DNA of 64,000 nt from Dysidea avara (taxonomy: Eukaryota > Porifera > Demospongiae > Dictyoceratida > Dysideidae). The stretch covers positions 60,338,574 to 60,402,573 of the forward strand of contig NC_089272.1 of NCBI RefSeq assembly GCF_963678975.1, read 5' to 3'. Below the pieces are notes generated by a model. It saw only the letters and a program-made list of their open reading frames with translations, did no database searches and was not told the origin of the DNA. Position numbers and translations under genes: made by a program. Below are positions 53,455 to 63,356 of the stretch, one piece after another. Position 1 is the stretch's first letter. Every line of letters starts with the position of its first letter.

Positions 53455-53985
53455 GATAAATGTGTTCTGCACACCAATATGTGAGGATTTAGAAGTCTAT
53501 CACTTTTAATGTACGTACGTCGGCCTTGCTTCGTTGATTGGTCGTCTCTTTCAATCCTCAGGCATATCCTCAGAAACATCAAAATGCATCAAACATCTAT
53601 TTGGTTGGCTCTCCGTTGCCTCTGTCCATGCATGGCGCTCGAGTGAAGTCAAGATTCAAAATTTAAATAATTCACGTGCGGTCGCGTGATCATACATGGA
53701 CTTCGTTAGCAGAACAGTGATAGACGCGAAGATAGACTTACCTCCAGACTTACTCACTAGGTACACACAAAGAAGAACAGCATGGAGTAATATTCTAGAC
53801 TATAATAGTACAGCGGTGCGGGTCGTCTTCATGATAGCAGTAACTTCATGATAGCTACTCGCTGCCGGGGAAATTCCGGATGTCTCTACGGCCTTGATCT
53901 CTACATTCCAAGCTACATTCAATTTCAGACTGTTCAGTGTGTGCCGTTGGAATCCTTTGCGTGTGAGTAAACTATTACTATACTT
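53455..53985. other. no gene seen; left flank of the split 95-bp repeat
   Basis: Could include the outer part of a BEL/Pao LTR, but I cannot delimit it. Confidence 0.3.
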
Positions 53986-54051
53986 GTAAGCGATTCGTCT
54001 GGTTCCTTATTGTCGACTTCACCCGTCACAACCCTTGCCGTCGTTATCACC
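53986..54051. repeat. 95-bp direct repeat, left piece (copy split by Ginger)
   Basis: Starts GTAAGCGATTCGTCTGG and ends TTATCACC. Identical by eye to 62317-62382. The copy continues at 59699-59727 after the Ginger insertion. Confidence 0.85.
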
Positions 54052-54216
54052 TGTCAACGCACCGATGGTCCGGGCAAAAACGGTCCGGCCGGACCATTTA
54101 TGCTGTCATAAATGGTCCGGCCGGACCATTTGTGCATGCATAACTGGTCCCCCCGGACCATACATGTCTGTGCAAAAATGGTCCGGCCTGAACATAAATG
54201 GTCCGCCTCCAGTCTT
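54052..54216. repeat. left terminal repeat array of Ginger (GGTCCGGCCGGACC)
   Basis: After TGTCAACGCACCGA come several copies of the palindrome GGTCCGGCCGGACC or half-sites of it (54065-54210), separated by ATTTATG-type spacers. These are probably transposase-binding sites. Confidence 0.85.
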
Positions 54217-54796
54217 TCATTAGCCGGCCATAACGGCACTCCCTACCTCAAGTATTCCGCCACTGTGCCACCAGGGATCCCTCTGCCACCGTAACTAAGC
54301 GTCCACAAACGCATGCCTGATGCCGTGGCTTTGCTACAAGAAAGCTATATCAATACCAGTACCTGGACTGAGCATAATATAGCCGACCCTATAGTAGAAC
54401 GTCTCTTTGCTAGCATAAACAACTATGGTGTACTATACTGTAGTTTCTATTCCAGAACAATTCGTGATTAGAATAATTACACTGTTAATTCGAGTGGATG
54501 ACTCCTGTGCCAACTTGCATGAAGATCATACAAATCATAGCTACATGTATGAGATTCATACAAGTTGCCACAGATGTTATCTACAGTGTATGAAGTTCAT
54601 ATTTTCGAATTAACATGCAGTGTAGCTATATTCTGGCACAGCTAATAATAATTAACTGTAGCTATGTTAGGTATAGTTACTCATATCTTGCTACGTAGCT
54701 AATTCTGTTACAATTTTCCACAGGTGAATTTTGCTATTAAAATAAGATTATAATGCTAAAGCACTGTAGCTATAAAGATACATGGCATGGTTGCAA

Positions 54797-55239
54797 TTAT
54801 TCAAAGTCATTAATCTGGTGAATGTCCTGGGAGCATTCGTGGCATGAAAAAGTTTTTACATTCTTGGCCTCTTCAGGCTTCAGGTTGGTACAGATGATGT
54901 GTGACCATTGCTTACATTTATCACATCGTACCTGTAAAAATACATTAAAATGTGCATATATTATTGTGTATTAGTCTTACCCAATCAACATATTGTGGAT
55001 GACTTATACTTTGTTCCCCTGCACCACACATTATACACCTTTCGGTCATATCAACTATAGAATGTGTATATCAAATACCATAATGCAGGCACATTCGTTT
55101 GTAGCTAGAGGTCATTATGTACTATAGTACCTGAGTATGAAAGCAATGCAACACCTATATCAATCCGTGCTTGTGTAGTATTCATTCTGCACAGGCTATT
55201 TTCTTCAATGCTTCCTGATAGAAACAGCTGCTCAGCCAT
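54797..55239 (-). CDS. Ginger gene 3' exons: PHD finger
   Basis: Three exons: 55239-55131, 55054-54981 and 54931-54797, all with GT-AG borders and matching phase; stop at 54797-54799. The first reads MAEQLFLSGSIEEN and leads out of the protease domain. The others form a C4HC3 PHD finger: CIMCGAGEQ, WVRCDKCKQWSHIICTNL, FSCHEC. Every zinc ligand is present, and the aromatic residues (YVDW, KQW) sit where PHD fingers read histone H3 tails. A chromatin reader on a transposase suggests targeted integration. No damage seen in this part. Confidence 0.85.
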
Positions 55240-55287
55240 CTAAAAAAAAACTATAATGCTATACTTATAATGATTGTATGATTATAC

Positions 55288-55707
55288 CTTCATGCAGTAT
55301 ACACCACAGTTGGAGGTATCATACTGAATCTTTCTCTTCAGCTGCTTCAACTCAAACTTAGTGATGTCTAAATGGTCCTTTCCTAATATTTCACCCCTTC
55401 TCTTGAAGTAATTCCTGTATAAACAGGTGTTCAGCAATTGAAGTCACATTTTCAAGTAACATGTATGCCAAAAAACTTATTTGCCATGTAACTAACTAAC
55501 TTTACAGCAGCAAATGCACCACGGCTTGACCGTGAAGGTCCATAGGGATCAAGATAATAAAAGCTTTTCTGCTCCAAGTCCTTAGCCTAAAAACATAATA
55601 GCGTAACAGATGACAATGTTACTGATGAGCAGACTTACAATGAGAATCCAATGGTTACTACCTTGGTTGTAGCATCCTCCAATGTACTTATACGTGCTCA
55701 ATGATTC
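55288..55707 (-). CDS. Ginger gene exons: Ulp1/SENP-type cysteine protease
   Basis: Exons 55707-55639, 55585-55506 and 55414-55288, GT-AG borders. In order they contain the His of NQGSNHWILI, the Asp of YYLDPYGPSRS, and QYDTSNCGVYCMK with the oxyanion Gln and the nucleophile Cys. H-D-Q-C in this order is the catalytic set of C48 (Ulp1/SENP) peptidases, which process SUMO or related modifiers. No stop codon occurs in these exons. The exon 55707-55639 acceptor is weak, so its 5' border is less certain. Known Ulp1-type domains occur in several transposon groups; here it is fused to the integrase in one gene. Confidence 0.8.
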
Positions 55708-55806
55708 CTAGCAACCAAGGGAACAACTCTCATTGCAATAATTATACATAGCTTAATTACTTTGTTATTGTGTGCAAAATGTTACTAACCGTCATTGTAA
55801 CTGTAC

Positions 55807-57130
55807 CTTAGACAATAGGTGTGAATGCTTCCCAGCAGAGGTATGGCTGAGTATGCAAGATAGTGTCTGAGAAATCATGGCAAAAGTATTTCCTTGGATA
55901 TTTGATAACAGTTCAAGGTATGTATGGATTATCTTTGGAATTTAATACATTTAAATAAGCACATACATGTCAGACATTAATGAACCTCATCATTTACATC
56001 TTGATTTGGTTTTAGGCTGTGGAAACTTCCGTGGTGAACTGCATTTCTACCTATCCTTGCTTTAACAACATGACATGGTTTTCCATTCCAAATCTTAGTA
56101 AGCTGTTTCTTGAGGAATAAAACACATGATAATATTTTGTGCATACATACATAACATATATTCATTATACATGTGCTCCATGTAGCATAATGTATAGCTG
56201 TATAACTACTGTATAGCATTGTTATTATACCTCTGCATTATTAGTGGATCCTGTATCCATCTCACAGTCATTCTTATGAATCTCCTTCACTGGATCACTC
56301 TTTACCTTCTTGCAAGCACTCTCATTCTGTACAATGTGCCACATGTAGCAGCACCATTATGCAGATGAATATGCCAAACTTACAGTTTTAAAAACATCTT
56401 TCAGCAATTTGCGCTTCCTCTGTGGTTTCACAAGATCAGGACAATTCTTATCAGGACTAGAAAACTGCAGTAATCTTTTACATTTAGTAACTCCTTTAGG
56501 CGAATCAAAAATTGCATCTACAATTCTATTCTCTGTAATTTGTGATGAATCAAAATAATACAGAAATTTGTTGAAACACCTACCAGGTGATTTAGGTGTA
56601 GCACTAAGCTGTGTATCTCCTTTCTTAGTCCCACAAATTGGTGAAATTCAAGTGCCACTTGGAAGTAGTTCAGGAACAAACTCTTCCATACAAAGAGGTG
56701 TGCTAGCTTGAATTATACTGTTAACTTCCTGGCTATCCTGTACAACTAAATGAAATAAGTACGATGTGCACACCTTGAAGTATAATTCAATAAATATACA
56801 CATATACCATCAGAGTGCTCCTTGCTTATTCCTTGGCTTAATGAAGGAAGTGGCACAGGTGAATTAGAATTTCTTGCAGTACTGTCAGATTCCATTTGTT
56901 GATCTTGCAGTCGGTTTACTACAAACAAATAACTTATAAATTTATCTATACACATAATTTATGCAGATACACACAATTATGCATACAGTATTAGTAAGAC
57001 AGGGTGTACATCCTTAACTGAATGTATTATATAAATAAATACCTTCACAATCCTTAAATTTTTGATTTTTGCTTGATGAATCGGAATATGATGTACCAGA
57101 ACTGGTAGATGCATCTACTGCAGTTGGACT
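55807..57130 (-). CDS. Ginger gene linker exons between integrase and protease
   Basis: Exons, high to low: 57130-57043, 56918-56808, 56745-56584, 56532-56384, 56325-56231, 56108-55986, 55866-55807. All have GT-AG borders in consistent phase. The product is Ser/Lys/Asp-rich and looks disordered (SPTAVDASTSSGTSYSD; KPQRKRKLLKDVFK, a likely nuclear localisation signal; KKVKSDPVKEIHKND). The last exons (KQLTKIWNGKPCHVV; HTSAGKHSH) probably lead into the protease fold. One in-frame TGA lies at 56648-56650 and looks like a CGA-to-TGA change. Confidence 0.65.
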
Positions 57131-57191
57131 CTAAACATAAACAGAAGAGGTAACCAAGGTAGAAGTAATGTCAAATATTCAGTTAACTTAC

Positions 57192-59111
57192 TTTAGGAGG
57201 TATTGGCTGTATTGGAGACATATAAGGCTTGAGACGAGTGCCATGCACTCTTTCAATGACCTTTTCAGGATTTTCAACTCCTTTTAAACTGTAGAGACCT
57301 TTTCCTAGTGATTTTACAATTTCATAAGGACCAAGCCATCTGTAATCCAGTTTTCCTCCCTTCCTTTTCTTCCTTTTATTATCTCTAATAAGCATTTTGG
57401 CTCCTACAGCATAAGCTCCTACATAAAGAAATTGAACTGGCGTATCTTTAGATATATATTACATACCTGGCTTATAGTTTCTCTTATCATACTGTTCTTT
57501 TTGTCTTTGTTGTGCTTTCAGAATGTTAGCCTTTGCAGCATTAAGTGTTGCTTGCTTAGCATGATGAAGCTCATTAAGTAGAGAAGGATCTTCTGCTTTG
57601 CAAAAATCCGTTAACAATACATCAGGATCTTTCTTTTCGGTATTAATGTCAACCGGTAGCACTGGCTTTCGTGCAAACATGAGTTCAAATGGTGAGTATT
57701 GTGTAGATTCTTGTTTGGAGGTATTATAGCTATAAACACATGTATCCAAAAAGTCTTCCCATTGCTCTTTCTTATGATCAATAAATTTCACAATCATGTT
57801 CTGTAGTGTCTGGTTAAATCGTTCAACCAAGCCATTGGCCTAAGGGAAATATATATACTTAATCGACAATCTGTATATGATATAATAACAATGTAGTTGT
57901 ATAATTGCTACGGACACCAATGCAAGAAAATTATACCTGCGGATGATAAGCAGTTGTTAATCTGTGATCAATCTGGAGCAATGACATCATTCATTTATCA
58001 AGGTGGTTGTTAAATTCTGTTCCCTGATCTGTTGTGATGACTCTAGGAATTCCCATCCTCATGAAAATCTATAATAAAACACAGATCTATAAATAGATAT
58101 CATTTACATAAAGCTACGTATATAGATACCTTAAATAGAGAATTAGCTACTTGAAATGCACTTTTGTCCGGGGTAGCTATGGCCTCTGCCCACTTTGTGA
58201 AGTAGTCAATAACTGTTAAAATATAGCGATTTCCTGCAAAAAATGTGTGCAATTTTTACAGAATAAATAATAATAATTGATGCTGATTCATGCATGCACT
58301 GTGAAAAGTAAGTGCATGGTGATACCTGTGACAAGTGAATGCCAATAGCTATATTATATTTTAGTGATGGTCACTATATTAATATAATATGTTTGCCACA
58401 GATCTCACCATTAATCTTTACAGAGCCATTGCATGCTTTTACTGTATACATACCTGCTGGAGACTGATATGCAATTGGGCCAATAAAAATCTACGCCTAG
58501 ATGATACCAGGGAGCCTTGACTGGTACAGGATTCAGTGCAGGGGCAATAGTTTCTAGCTTTCTGTTCACATGCTGGCAAATATCACATCGTTGCACCTAT
58601 GCATTCCGTACAAGATATGGCATCACATTTGTATTACATGCTCATGCAGAGTGCATCTTACAATTTCTTTAGCATCCTTAGATACCCCTTTCCACATAAA
58701 CCTCTCAGTAATTCTTGCCAGTGTCTTCCTGTATCCAAGATGGCCAGAGGTCTGATCTCCATGACAAGCTTGTACAATCCTAAGCTGTTCCTTTCTTTCT
58801 CTAATGTATCGAACTTGTTGCACCTGAACATGCAAATTAAGAAATGATATGGCTACATATACATGCATGTATGTGCACTATAGCCACACCTCATCCTTTC
58901 CTTTATGTTTTTTTCTAAACACCAATTCTCCATCAACCACACAAAAGTTTGCTGCCTTTCTTCTTACAATTCGCTTCTGATTTTGAGTAAGGCCTTCTCT
59001 ATACTGCTTCTTTGTCACATAAACATGAACATCTTCTAGTGTGTCAGTTTCCAATTCGTCCTCGAAATGGTTATCCTCCTTATCAGTATTATGAGCCATC
59101 ACTGGAAGCAA
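57192..59111 (-). CDS. Ginger integrase-type transposase, 5' exons
   Basis: Seven exons: 59111-58890 (start MLPVMAHN; the second Met at 59099 is also possible), 58823-58662, 58596-58454, 58233-58130, 58068-57937, 57839-57467, 57418-57192. Domains in order: an H2C2 zinc finger (ACHGDQTSGHLG plus RCDICQHVN), a Gypsy-like DDE core with D in HLGVDF, D in TTDQGTEF and E in NGLVERFNQ, then a GPY/F region (YRWLGPYEI, GLYSLKG). Introns of 40-250 bp interrupt it, unlike a retroelement integrase. An extra base in the A-run 58485-58489 breaks the frame just after the first D, and a TGA at 57991-57993 falls between the second D and the E. So this copy cannot make a full protein. Confidence 0.88.
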
Positions 59112-59560
59112 GCAACTTGCGCCACTTCAAGTTGCAGATTATTCACTCTAAACTTGATCTCTGAGCCTTTCGTGTTCGTTAGAGCTAGTATATAGTCCTG
59201 CTGTAGCTGCAGTATAGCCGCGGATCCTCAGTCAGTAAATTGAACGCCGGCACGCGACTGCTTCGTATCGAATCTTGCTCCTTAGCCGGATATGCTGTAT
59301 AAGCTAACTACCAGACTCCCTATACCAACAAGATACGGCCGCAACAACCAGTTATACAGTCTATACACTCCAACTCTGTCTGCTATTTGAGCTAACTAAG
59401 CAGTACTGAGATATCTATTGGATTTAGTTTATGTCAGCATGCTGAGAGATTTTGCGAGATTTCTTTGAAGGCACCGCTTCAAAGAGATGAGGCTAACCTA
59501 TATTTGGTGTATATAGCTATTCTTGTCGACTGTACGGTGGCAAATAGTCGTTGCAGTTTA
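59112..59560 (-). other. Ginger 5' region
   Basis: 450 bp between the first exon and the terminal array. The promoter should be here but no TATA box is clear. Confidence 0.4.
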
Positions 59561-59566
59561 GTTTGG

Positions 59567-59694
59567 TAACCCGGACCATTTATGTTTGGGTAGGACCATT
59601 TATGTCGTCATAGATGGTCCGGCCGGACCATTTATGTCGAACATATTTGGTCCGGCCGGACCGTTTATGCACCCGGACCAAATATTTTGTTACA
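59567..59694. repeat. right terminal repeat array of Ginger
   Basis: Two complete GGTCCGGCCGGACC palindromes, a third with one mismatch, and half-sites spaced by ATTTATG and CATAAA, ending in TTACA. Mirrors the left array. Confidence 0.85.
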
Positions 59695-59698
59695 CACC

Positions 59699-59727
59699 AC
59701 TTGACTCGAGGTGAACTCACGTGCGAC
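59699..59727. repeat. 95-bp direct repeat, right piece
   Basis: ACTTGACTCGAGGTGAACTC then ACGTGCGAC. One base differs from 62383-62411. Confidence 0.85.
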
Positions 59728-60480
59728 ACAATACCCAGATTTAACTGTTGTTGGATGATGGCATTGTATTCCTGTAGTACCTCGGGGTGATGACGGAGCC
59801 TCTTAAGCAGTCCTTCAAGTCGCCTCTTAGCTAGCAGAAAGTTACTGGGAGGCCGTATCTGATCTGAGCGCCATGGGAGACTTACTTCATATCTGCCATC
59901 ATCAAACTTAATGAACTGTTTGAAAGTGTCATAGACTGAAGGTTCGACGAATTGTATACCCAGTGACTCCAATTCCCAGAAGTTCTTAAGCAACTGGTCC
60001 ATGGACTGTACATCAGAGGTTTGAACAAGGAGCGAGTGAGTAGGGTTCAGGTTAGGCAAGTTAGCATCACTACAGACTGGACCAGGTAGGCGGTTGGACC
60101 ACTCTGCCCACGGATCACTTGTCCTGTTACCAGCTGCCAATAGTGGTCAGAGCCAATTAAGGCATCTACTTGCAGGTCATTGCCAACTCTAGAAAAGTCT
60201 GCCAAATTAAGGTCTCTGAGATGTCTGTACTTCTCCTTGGTATATGCAATCGGTTGACAAGATAGTGGCTCGCAGATAAGCGGAACCGTAGACAACATCA
60301 ATTTAACAGTGGTACCATTCTTAAGAGGTATACCAACTCTCACCATCTCCACTGTCTGCATTGTTGTGGTATCTGAGCCAAACGTTTTGATCTGAACCTG
60401 TTCAACATGATCTGGTAACAACCCCAGTGCATCCCTCACTCTCTGTGTTATGTAGGACCGCTGACTCCCCCATCCAGCAT
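59728..60480 (-). pseudogene. BEL/Pao retroelement: protease and start of RT, broken
   Basis: The 60480-60047 part is a retroviral-type aspartyl protease region of the BEL/Pao kind (MTIRLMLDGG, an altered DGG(S) active-site region, then VALIGSD-like DALIGSDHYWQL). The 60140-59730 part has FWELESLGI, YEVSLPWRSDQIRPPSNFLL and LQEYNAIIQQQLNLGIV, the N-terminal part of the Pao reverse transcriptase. The catalytic RT palm, RNase H and integrase are missing: sequence stops at the 95-bp repeat (59727). Frames change near 60100 and 60450. Old, inactive copy. Confidence 0.82.
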
Positions 60481-61203
60481 CAGTCTAATGGTCATTCTAC
60501 GCTTAGGTTCATCTAATTTGTGTACATACGCCTTGGCAGTTTGCAACAAAACTGGGACTTCCGTGTTGACGCAATACAACTGGGTGGTAGTTGGTATGTC
60601 CTGCTGCCCTGGTGGCAGTGGCTGTGGAGCTTGTAAATTGAATGTTGGTGGCTGCAGTGTTGATAAACTGGATTGCGGTAACTGTGGCGTTATTGTTGCA
60701 TTGTGTTCTGCAGCAGTATGGTTCTGGGAGTCTGAGCGTGGTTGTCCTCTAGAGACTGTACGACTGTTCTTACAAATACTGGAGTGATGCCGTCCACTGC
60801 AATGCGCACACTTGGCGGAGGATCTGCAATCCTTGCTGAGGTGATGCCTTCTTAGGCAGACAAAACAATGCCCTGTTCGCTTTAGAATACCTTTCCTCTG
60901 GGTGATGTCTGTTATAACAGTGCAAGACGATGAAGAGTGTCCCTGTCTACAATAACAACACTTGGGTTGGCCATCACCTGCAATAAAGGCTGCTGTAGTG
61001 GACATCACAGACCCTTGTGAACCTCCAATAGAAGAAAAGGCTCTCTCCCGAGCACTGATTTCATTCTCTACTATAGTCATTAATTGGTCTACAGTCCATT
61101 CAGCATCTCCAATTTCTCTGCTGACAATTAACCTAAGGTCTTCAGGCAACTTGTTCATAAATAAGGATGACAACAAATGTCCATATGAAGACAAAGGAAA
61201 CAC
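60448..61203 (-). pseudogene. BEL/Pao gag: C-terminal part with zinc knuckles
   Basis: Minus-strand frame with SYGHLLSSLFMNKLPEDLRL, then Cys/His knuckles CCYCRQGHSSSSC, HCFVCLRRHHLSKDC and CAHCSGRHHSSIC, typical of the gag of BEL/Pao elements, and a Gln/Pro-rich linker (PQPLPPGQQDIP). It runs on from the capsid-like part upstream after a stop and a frameshift near 61204-61222. No intact polyprotein. Confidence 0.85.
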
Positions 61204-61219
61204 TGAGTGATTTGAGGCT

Positions 61220-62107
61220 TCATACCTGAAATTCTACTTGATCATAAAAGCGGCGAAGAGCTTTAGTGTTGGTTGCAGATGGAACTGATGCTAGTTCTAC
61301 TAATGTGTCCATATGGCGAGCAATAATCAACTGTTTATTACCAAATCGCTTCTTAAGAATGTCAATTGCCTCGGTGTAATTAGAAGTAGAGAGTTGTAAG
61401 CCCGCTATCGCTCTCATTGCAGAACCTTCAAGCAATGAGTTTAGGTACGAGAATTTATCTACTGCAGACAATGATGGGTTAAGATGTATGGATGACTCAA
61501 ATGTGCTCCAGAATGCTTCCCACTTAGTGAGGTCACCGTTAAAGGTCTTCGGCACTAGCTTAGGTAACTTGACTCTGCTACCAGCATCTGTAGCTGGTGT
61601 CACTCTATGTTCCGGCCTTAGTTCTGAGGCAGCACCTGTGCCGGTTGTGGTAGTTGTTGCCGTGGTAGTTGTTGCCGTGGTAGTTGCTGCTGTGTCTGTT
61701 GTAGTTGTTGATGCGGTAGTTGTTGGCGAACTGCTGTGTGTGGGAGGTGTATTTCGATGTGTTGAAATAAGCTGCTCTACGTGACATATTGACTGTTGTA
61801 ATCTTTCAGAGAACACGTCTGCTTGTTCTATCTCTTCCTCTATCGCATCATCCTCGATTGATGCCAACACTTCGTCATTAAAGGTGCGAAGTTTAACTAA
61901 CTTTTCATTCAATGAAAGTTTCCACTGATGCAGCTTCTCGAGTGCCGGTCCTCCAGTGACGGCACTTGCTTCTTCCAGCTGATTCATCAGTCTTAAGGCT
62001 GACGAACGATGTCCAGCTCTCACTTTCTTGATTCGTGCAAGGGTTTCCATCGTCGCTAACAATTGAAAAATGTTGCAACTCTTGGTCAAAGTATCGACTG
62101 ATGTCAA
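61220..62107 (-). pseudogene. BEL/Pao gag: capsid-like N-terminal part
   Basis: Frame from 62107 (or Met at 62050, METLARIKKVRAGHRS) to a stop at 61220. A helical segment (KLHQWKLSLNEKLVKL) is followed by a Thr/Ala low-complexity stretch (61610-61740), then the conserved gag core LPKLVPKTFNGDLTKWEAFW, FSYLNSLLEGSAMRAIAGL and ILKKRFGNKQLIIARHMDTL. This is the DUF1759-type Pao gag. It ends RRFYDQVEFQV and a TGA, where the next frame takes over. Confidence 0.85.
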
Positions 62108-62316
62108 TTACAATAAATTCTAATTGGTGTCCACCAAACTGAATCGGATCGCCTAAAGAAAACAGCAGAGAAATACACATTAATTGACGCAATGCACTAG
62201 TCTGGTCGGGTACCATTTATAACCCGGTACCAAGGTGTCTGCGTTTGTGGTTAAAGATTTCTGCTACTGACTGTCTTGCCGTTGTACACCAGTGCGTGTC
62301 CGGCTCGAAGGACCAT

Positions 62317-62411
62317 GTAAGCGATTCGTCTGGTTCCTTATTGTCGACTTCACCCGTCACAACCCTTGCCGTCGTTATCACCACTTGACACGAGGTGAAC
62401 TCACGTGCGAC
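62317..62411. repeat. 95-bp direct repeat, uninterrupted copy (Ginger empty site)
   Basis: Same sequence as 53986-54051 plus 59699-59727 with one mismatch. Located 240 bp upstream of the Pao gag (minus orientation), with its partner just past the truncated RT, so both may be parts of Pao LTRs. Confidence 0.8.
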
Positions 62412-63356
62412 CAATACTATCTAGCTATAGTCTACCTTTATATTACTCCATCTGCTGAGTGCGTCGAGCCTGACTAGTGGCGGTGGAGCCAGCCGTTATG
62501 CGGACTTGACATGGGTACAAAAATGCTTGTGTAATAATATCGAAGTAGATAATTATTTAGCCGGTCCTTTGTTGTGTAAACATTAGGAAGTGTCCTATAA
62601 CTCGAGTATCAAACAGGTTACCATTATTCCACGGAACGGCACGGAACGGAATGGCATATTCCGTGGCATTATTCTCCGGAACGGAACGCCTATAGTGCCT
62701 AGATATATCCTCTAAATCACTTTCAAACACTATACTATGTTACTTTTGTGACAAACAAAACGAGCCGGCTGTTTCTTGTAGCCGATAAATGCCTCGAATT
62801 ATGCTAATGTGGGGTTTTATCACGTGACCTGCAGCTGTCATCAGGTGACAACACGAGGGAACACAAGATGAAGATGAGTTGGTGACGAATGCAAAGAAGT
62901 CATTTTGTGGTGAATTCAGTCTTTGCTGTAGTTATAGAAACGGTGCTTATAGCAGGAAGAACCAGAATGGAAGGAAATTCCGACGGCAGAACCAGCCGGA
63001 GTGGAAAACAACCTGCACAGCAGAACCAGTGTGGTAGAAGGACTGAGAATTATATTTTAGGTACTATAACAGATCTCCGTGATTTTGATGAGAGATTCAG
63101 AGTTTTATAAACAAAGGCCACTCAGTTGAAAACTGAACTTTGGCTTGATTTATGAAAGAGAAATTTAGTATTGTTGTATGTTGCAATAAGTATGGCCCTA
63201 ACACAGAATTTGAAAACTTACATGAGTGGACAAGAATCTTTTGGGTATCAGTAAAAGTGGTGAGTGTGTGTTTGTTTGACATGTTGTCTCTCAACGGGAC
63301 AGCCTAACTGCTCCAAACTACTGAGCTACAATTTTATAATCTTCTTAAATGCAACA
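62412..63356. other. no gene seen; CGGAAC-rich patch
   Basis: 62628-62695 holds ACGGAACGGAAT runs like the ends of the 33748 element. A short ORF at 62889-63110 lacks support. Confidence 0.35.

Follow-up and report, generated by a model that had tools for sequence, protein, structure and literature searches.

An intron-rich Ginger1-clade transposon of the sponge Dysidea avara encodes an integrase, an Ulp1-type protease and a PHD finger in one gene

Anatomy of the element and its gene

We analyzed a 64,000-nucleotide stretch of the genome of the dictyoceratid demosponge Dysidea avara (the window; assembly GCF_963678975.1, contig NC_089272.1, positions 60,338,574 to 60,402,573 of the forward strand), in which a complete DNA transposon of 5,643 bp occupies positions 54052-59694, with its first T at 54052 and its last A at 59694. 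The element carries a single minus-strand gene of 20 exons and 934 codons, with 19 introns that are all GT..AG and measure 48-220 nt, and this gene encodes an integrase, an Ulp1-type protease and a PHD finger. An initial annotation, made from the window alone, had described a Ginger1-type transposon with one gene of about 20 exons, in agreement with the 20 exons that we find on one strand. The element ends in TGTCA on one side and TGTTACA on the other (TGTAA on the opposite strand), giving termini of the TG..CA type, and its two terminal inverted repeats (TIRs) align over 104 columns with 80% identity. Both ends, TGTCA and TGTAA, conform to the TGTNR termini of Ginger1 elements, as the TIRs do to their range of 40-270 bp. 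The palindromic units within both TIRs are likely transposase binding sites; seven copies of a palindrome-rich unit of ~32 nt (family D1) are listed, at 54068-54205 and 59570-59670. The features are as follows.

54052..59694, minus (gene strand): whole element, ends TGTCA...TGTTACA
54048..54051, unstranded: left target site duplication CACC
59695..59698, unstranded: right target site duplication CACC
54052..54210, unstranded: left TIR with palindromic units (CATAAATGGTCCGGCCGGACCATTTATG-like), from alignment to the opposite end
59565..59694, unstranded: right TIR, gene 5' side, same palindromic units as the left, from alignment to the opposite end
58890..59099, minus: exon 1, start codon at 59099
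58662..58823, minus: exon 2, start of the H2C2 zinc-binding domain
58454..58596, minus: exon 3, H2C2 end and first catalytic Asp (residue 160); one-base frame shift in the window copy
58130..58233, minus: exon 4, integrase core
57937..58068, minus: exon 5, second catalytic Asp (residue 220); nonsense codon in the window copy
57467..57839, minus: exon 6, catalytic Glu (residue 256), DD35E spacing
57192..57418, minus: exon 7, GPY/F motif (residue 404)
57043..57130, minus: exon 8, linker
56808..56918, minus: exon 9, linker
56584..56745, minus: exon 10, linker; nonsense codon in the window copy
56384..56532, minus: exon 11, linker, basic part
56231..56326, minus: exon 12, linker
55986..56108, minus: exon 13, start of the Ulp1 region
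55807..55932, minus: exon 14, Ulp1
55639..55707, minus: exon 15, Ulp1 catalytic His (residue 754, 55651-55653)
55501..55586, minus: exon 16, Ulp1 catalytic Asp (residue 771, 55548-55550)
55288..55414, minus: exon 17, Ulp1 Gln (residue 817) and catalytic Cys (residue 823, 55306-55308)
55131..55239, minus: exon 18, end of the Ulp1 region
54981..55054, minus: exon 19, PHD Cys 1-2 and first putative cage tryptophan (residue 890)
54797..54931, minus: exon 20, PHD Cys 3-4, second putative cage tryptophan (residue 899), His, Cys 5-7, stop
62316..62411, unstranded: another copy of the flanking repeat that lacks the element and so shows the insertion site in its unoccupied form (repeat families D4, D5)

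The NCBI protein model P0001 of D. avara contains the whole architecture as one protein. Spliced alignment of P0001 to another genomic copy of the element (L038) returned 19 introns, 18 of them identical to our hand-made model and one with an acceptor 6 nt away. An earlier exon model of 906 residues was wrong at the borders 13|14 and 16|17; P0001 and the sister family described below led to the 934-residue model. The initial annotation had splice borders and phases in agreement throughout. This is true of the family but not of the window copy, which is dead: its exon 3 contains a one-base frame shift, and in both exon 5 and exon 10 a CGA has become TGA, a nonsense codon.

Profile hidden Markov models from Pfam, the check suggested by the initial annotation for its four domains, placed Integrase_H2C2 (64.6 bits), rve (42.4 bits) and Peptidase_C48 (42.0 bits) of P0001 above their cut-offs and listed PHD below its cut-off of 24 bits. 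The integrase has the catalytic residues D160, D220 and E256, with 35 residues between the last two (DD35E), and the H2C2, DDE and GPY/F parts characteristic of Ginger1 are all present. Both catalytic and structural sets previously read from the exons were located in full: H754, D771, Q817 and C823 of the Ulp1 protease, and all eight zinc ligands of a C4HC3 PHD finger (C872, C875, C893, C896, H901, C904, C920 and C923). P0001 contains Peptidase_C48 and no OTU domain, in line with the Ginger1 pattern of OTU or Ulp1, not both. In the region of the YPYY motif before the zinc finger, inspection by eye finds Y-R-F-F from residue 33, with the Pro replaced; the relatives P0124 and P0147 have Y-P at this position.

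The Ginger element is nested in a BEL/Pao-like long terminal repeat (LTR) element (59695-62420 and 53985-54051; DUF1759 and DUF1758 on the minus strand). Repeats of 67 nt and 33 nt are present on both sides of the insertion, which hints at pieces of LTRs and at an internal deletion in this BEL/Pao-like host.

Copies, target sites and relatives

The D. avara genome contains 22 matches of at least 737 bp at an identity of at least 95%, the window included. We fetched 20 further copies, 15 of them near-complete and five internally deleted, the latter used for their ends only. The Ulp1 and PHD exons are present in all 15 near-complete copies, with a 38-nt gap in exon 18 of L050; paralogues without these exons, which the initial annotation had named as one finding that would overturn its single-gene reading, are absent from this set. 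The 934-codon frame and all splice dinucleotides are intact in eight of the 15, the frame but not two splice dinucleotides in L043, and six copies (L031, L041, L044, L050, L040 and L046) contain stops, frame shifts or deletions. Counting the window, 15 of 16 copies diverge from the majority sequence by 0.09-0.35%; since this holds for 14 of the 15 others, the family moved recently. The exception, L032, differs by 2.5% and has one end missing, with unrelated sequence aligned there.

Perfect 4-bp target site duplications (TSDs), the length typical of Ginger1, flank 17 of the 21 copies examined, window included. Among the remaining four, L043, L046 and L050 have mismatched TSDs and L032 is without one end. 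Ten of the 17 perfect TSDs read GNNC, five have only the C (NNNC) and two only the G (GNNN); with both strands counted, G stands at TSD position one in 27 of 34 cases, and in 22 of 34 the base two positions out from the TSD is a G. The five internally deleted copies (L034, L037, L039, L048 and L049) all have TSDs as well, which is explained by trans-mobilization. According to Bao, Kapitonov and Jurka (2010, PMC2836005), the TSDs of 112 Hydra Ginger1 elements are CCGG (75%) or CCGT/ACGG (24%), whereas none of the 17 perfect TSDs here is CCGG, CCGT or ACGG. Because of this difference, we treat the element as a variant member of the Ginger1 clade rather than as a typical Ginger1.

An integrase tree places the element in the same clade. 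The tree comprises 42 rows hand-picked from 227, with Hydra rows standing in for the Repbase Ginger1 sequences. It groups 23 rows at 96/97: 17 Ginger-like proteins, four with an OTU domain, a fish C48 protein and one other. The Hydra proteins P0136 and P0160 fall within this group, and all 16 Gypsy rows that bear a reverse transcriptase fall outside it. The four OTU rows occupy four separate positions, interleaved with Ulp1 rows, indicating that the type of C-terminal protease switched repeatedly. A protein from the fish Pseudochaenichthys georgianus (P0192) has rve and C48, and by eye an IW-G stretch before the Ulp1 region and a PHD-like C-x2-C start.

A second D. avara family (P0003, P0121 and P0122; locus L059) is also multi-exon, with tens of matches in the genome. 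It has the same domains and is 49% identical in the aligned part, with a longer linker. Of the 17 introns of the present family that lie within the aligned part, nine have the same position and phase in the second family and another is displaced by two residues; one more can be deduced from an exon skipped in the P0003 model and present in P0121. The ends of the second family were not found within the 7 kb examined at L059.

Among 19 proteins scanned with Pfam, PHD is listed in nine (five above the cut-off, P0003 and P0121 among these), and rve, C48 and PHD occur together in five: P0001, P0002, P0124 and the metagenome proteins P0006 and P0131. Only P0124, from Ephydatia muelleri, has all three above the cut-offs; in this single protein they are combined with H2C2, which also exceeds its Pfam cut-off. 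By eye, P0124 differs in its Ulp1 subtype and has Met in place of Trp at the first cage position. In a word-based search, the Ulp1-PHD part alone matched P0001, P0002 and P0121 only.

The initial annotation had left it undecided whether the combination of integrase, Ulp1 and PHD had been described before. It had: Bao et al. (2010, PMC2836005) list Ginger1-9_HM of Hydra with Ulp1 and PHD in their Table 1. By its published description, Ginger1-9_HM shares with the D. avara element a Ginger1 transposase bearing both domains, a 4-bp TSD, TGTNR ends and TIRs of similar length (120 bp), and it differs in size and introns (3,758 bp and two introns, versus 5,643 bp and 19); Ginger1 families are given there as having 0-4 introns. 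The domain combination is thus known from Hydra and other sponges, and the D. avara element adds to it a high intron number, a different target pattern, signs of selection and an intronless sister. The literature searched yielded no report of a Ginger element from Dysidea, and the word 'ginger' is absent from the main text of the D. avara genome paper. As of 2022, Repbase, which lay outside the search, contained 23 entries for autonomous Ginger1 elements, and the family may already be catalogued there.

Selection, predicted functions and alternatives

The sister family is represented by two copies, L051 (3401-7001) on contig C12 and L052 on contig C1, which carry the same gene at 57-65% identity over the longer aligned stretches. 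Comparing L038 with L051, we obtained ratios of nonsynonymous to synonymous substitution (dN/dS) of 0.04 for H2C2, 0.09 for the integrase core, 0.21 up to GPY/F and 0.49 for the linker, and of 0.13 for Ulp1 (residues 664-840; 95% interval 0.07-0.22) and 0.12 for PHD (0.05-0.30). With L052 the values in the same order are 0.04, 0.09, 0.21, 0.48, 0.14 and 0.10. The low ratios in Ulp1 and PHD indicate that both accessory domains have been kept by selection much like the catalytic core.

For the Ulp1 region, the best sequence match in the PDB is yeast Ulp1 (E 6.5e-4). A predicted structure of P0121, the Ulp1-PHD protein of the second family, has a mean predicted local distance difference test (pLDDT) score of 50.3, with the Ulp1 blocks at 55-91, and a structure search with it returned SENP2, Ulp1 and SENP1 on top (target template modeling score 0.69-0.78 over ranks 1-15). 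This SENP/Ulp1-like protease most likely removes SUMO. The PHD finger matches the fingers of Alfin-like proteins, KDM5B and KDM5A in sequence, and its tryptophans at residues 890 and 899 align with both tryptophans of the KDM5B PHD3; P0002, P0003 and P0121 likewise have Trp at both positions. In KDM5-type readers of histone H3 trimethylated at lysine 4 (H3K4me3), these two tryptophans form the methyl-lysine cage. From this alignment, the finger is most likely an H3K4me3 reader.

We consider it probable that the window holds an inactivated copy of a recently mobile cut-and-paste transposon of the Ginger1 clade, whose PHD finger most likely docks on H3K4-methylated chromatin and whose Ulp1 domain most likely strips SUMO. 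In the order of events that we infer, the Gypsy-type integrase (H2C2, DD35E, GPY/F) would bind the palindromic repeats of the TIRs, their likely role, cut at the TG..CA ends and, using a 4-bp stagger, join these to target DNA, with GNNC as the preferred site. The PHD finger would dock the transposase on H3K4-methylated nucleosomes, as described for the RAG2 PHD (PMC8355894), and at the sites of excision and insertion Ulp1 would remove SUMO, either from the transposase or from proteins of silencing or repair. The RAG1/RAG2 recombinase, as presented in PMC8355894, is a possible model of how the element works, being a transposase-derived DNA recombinase guided by an H3K4me3-binding PHD, and is unlike it in its transposase family, in having the PHD on a partner protein and in lacking a SUMO protease; the element is not a member of that system. 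A role of Ulp1 or OTU in transposition or repair was proposed by Bao et al. (2010, PMC2836005).

Several results count against this reading. The PHD finger of P0001 scores 19.3 bits, under the Pfam cut-off, and is modeled poorly in the predicted structure; the AlphaFold model of the whole protein, with a mean pLDDT of 40.9, is unusable and was left aside. Asn takes the place of the Ulp1 Asp in P0002, which means that not all relatives possess a working triad. The dN/dS ratios are rough: the sister gene is dead, and synonymous change in the PHD part approaches saturation (proportion of synonymous differences, pS, 0.67-0.70). CpG is not significantly enriched in the flanks of 20 copies (0.57 versus 0.48, p = 0.24) in a weak, rough test for promoter-like flanks whose background was the window only (66 pieces), leaving promoter targeting unsupported. 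The suggestion in the initial annotation that the accessory domains control host chromatin or target insertion fits the selection on both domains and the cage tryptophans, and the weak test for promoter-like flanks gave it no support.

We weighed four other explanations. That the Ulp1-PHD exons belong to a neighboring host gene wrongly joined to the transposon gene might be supposed from the long, fast-evolving linker that separates the domains, and from the database model of the second family, which gives the Ulp1-PHD half as a separate protein (P0121). We rejected this very improbable explanation because it is refuted by the copies: in each of the 15 near-complete copies, which lie at different places, these exons are found inside the inverted repeats. 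P0001 is moreover a single protein, the intronless sister is collinear through integrase, Ulp1 and PHD, and fused proteins exist in Ephydatia (P0124) and two metagenomes (P0006 and P0131). Equally rejected, on anatomy and copies, and scarcely credible in our view, is a decayed Gypsy LTR retrotransposon or domesticated integrase gene. Gypsy integrases are indeed the closest outside relatives and the element lies within an LTR-like element, but Pfam finds no reverse transcriptase in it, its terminal repeats are inverted rather than direct, its many copies have TSDs, and the integrase tree sets it apart from the Gypsy rows.

The other two explanations concern function. Ulp1 and PHD could be passengers without a role in transposition, since Ulp1 and OTU interchange within the group (four OTU rows at four places in the tree; Bao et al., 2010, PMC2836005), making neither indispensable, and five of five internally deleted copies that lack parts of the gene still bear TSDs. 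Against passengers, which we regard as an improbable reading, the dN/dS of about 0.13 for Ulp1 and 0.12 for PHD is near the 0.09 of the core and below the 0.49 of the linker. Somewhat less unlikely is that Ulp1 serves in self-processing or acts on ubiquitin or NEDD8, with the PHD as a protein-protein or dimerization module: NEDP1 and chlamydial deubiquitinases also match the P0121 model, and OTU deubiquitinases occupy the same slot in relatives, whereas SENP and Ulp1 structures rank first and P0001, P0002, P0003 and P0121 each have the two cage tryptophans.

Why Ginger transposases bear ubiquitin or SUMO proteases and PHD fingers has been an open question since 2010. In the D. avara element, both accessory domains are under purifying selection comparable to that on the catalytic core, the many young, near-identical insertions make the chromatin context mappable, and the predicted ligands, SUMO and H3K4me3, are easy to assay.

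An intronless sister family

L051 has no intron at any of 18 testable exon borders, and the 19th border lies inside a 141-nt deletion. Because introns are common to the present family and the second D. avara family, they predate the split and must have been lost in the sister, for which a complementary DNA (cDNA) intermediate is the simplest route. L051 and L052 are 99.4% identical and have stops, frame breaks and this deletion in common, suggesting that they were spread by the transposase of another copy; each has its own TSD of the GNNC type (GCTC and GTGC). The sister's ends are 94.7-95.5% identical to those of the main family over 133 nt at the right TIR (gene 5' end) and about 88% over 168 nt at the left TIR. 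About half of the synonymous sites nevertheless differ, which means that the ends are strongly constrained or were exchanged. In the untranslated regions, the 5' part is similar past the TIR (score 82, against a shuffle maximum of 36) and the 3' part shows no similarity (39, against 47), leaving an origin of the sister from full-length read-through RNA unsupported.

An intron-rich and an intronless gene between similar inverted repeats make this a clear case in which to study how a DNA transposon can lose all its introns, presumably through cDNA. Loss of transposase introns, with reverse transcription proposed, is also described for the CACTA transposons (Buchmann 2014, PMC4158355); these are plant elements with few introns, whereas here every testable intron of 19 is gone. 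A wider proposal, which we advance only tentatively and think unlikely to hold in full, is that one polypeptide combines cutting and joining of DNA with H3K4me3 reading and local SUMO removal, and would thereby find active chromatin and undo SUMO-based silencing, and that the same lineage also gave rise to a mobile, reverse-transcribed intronless version between similar ends.

Additional contiguous partial copies of the sister are present in the genome. The intronless integrase has a further eight matches, at 68-71% identity, on contig C14 between ~3.77 and 10.1 Mb, the degenerate L060 among them.

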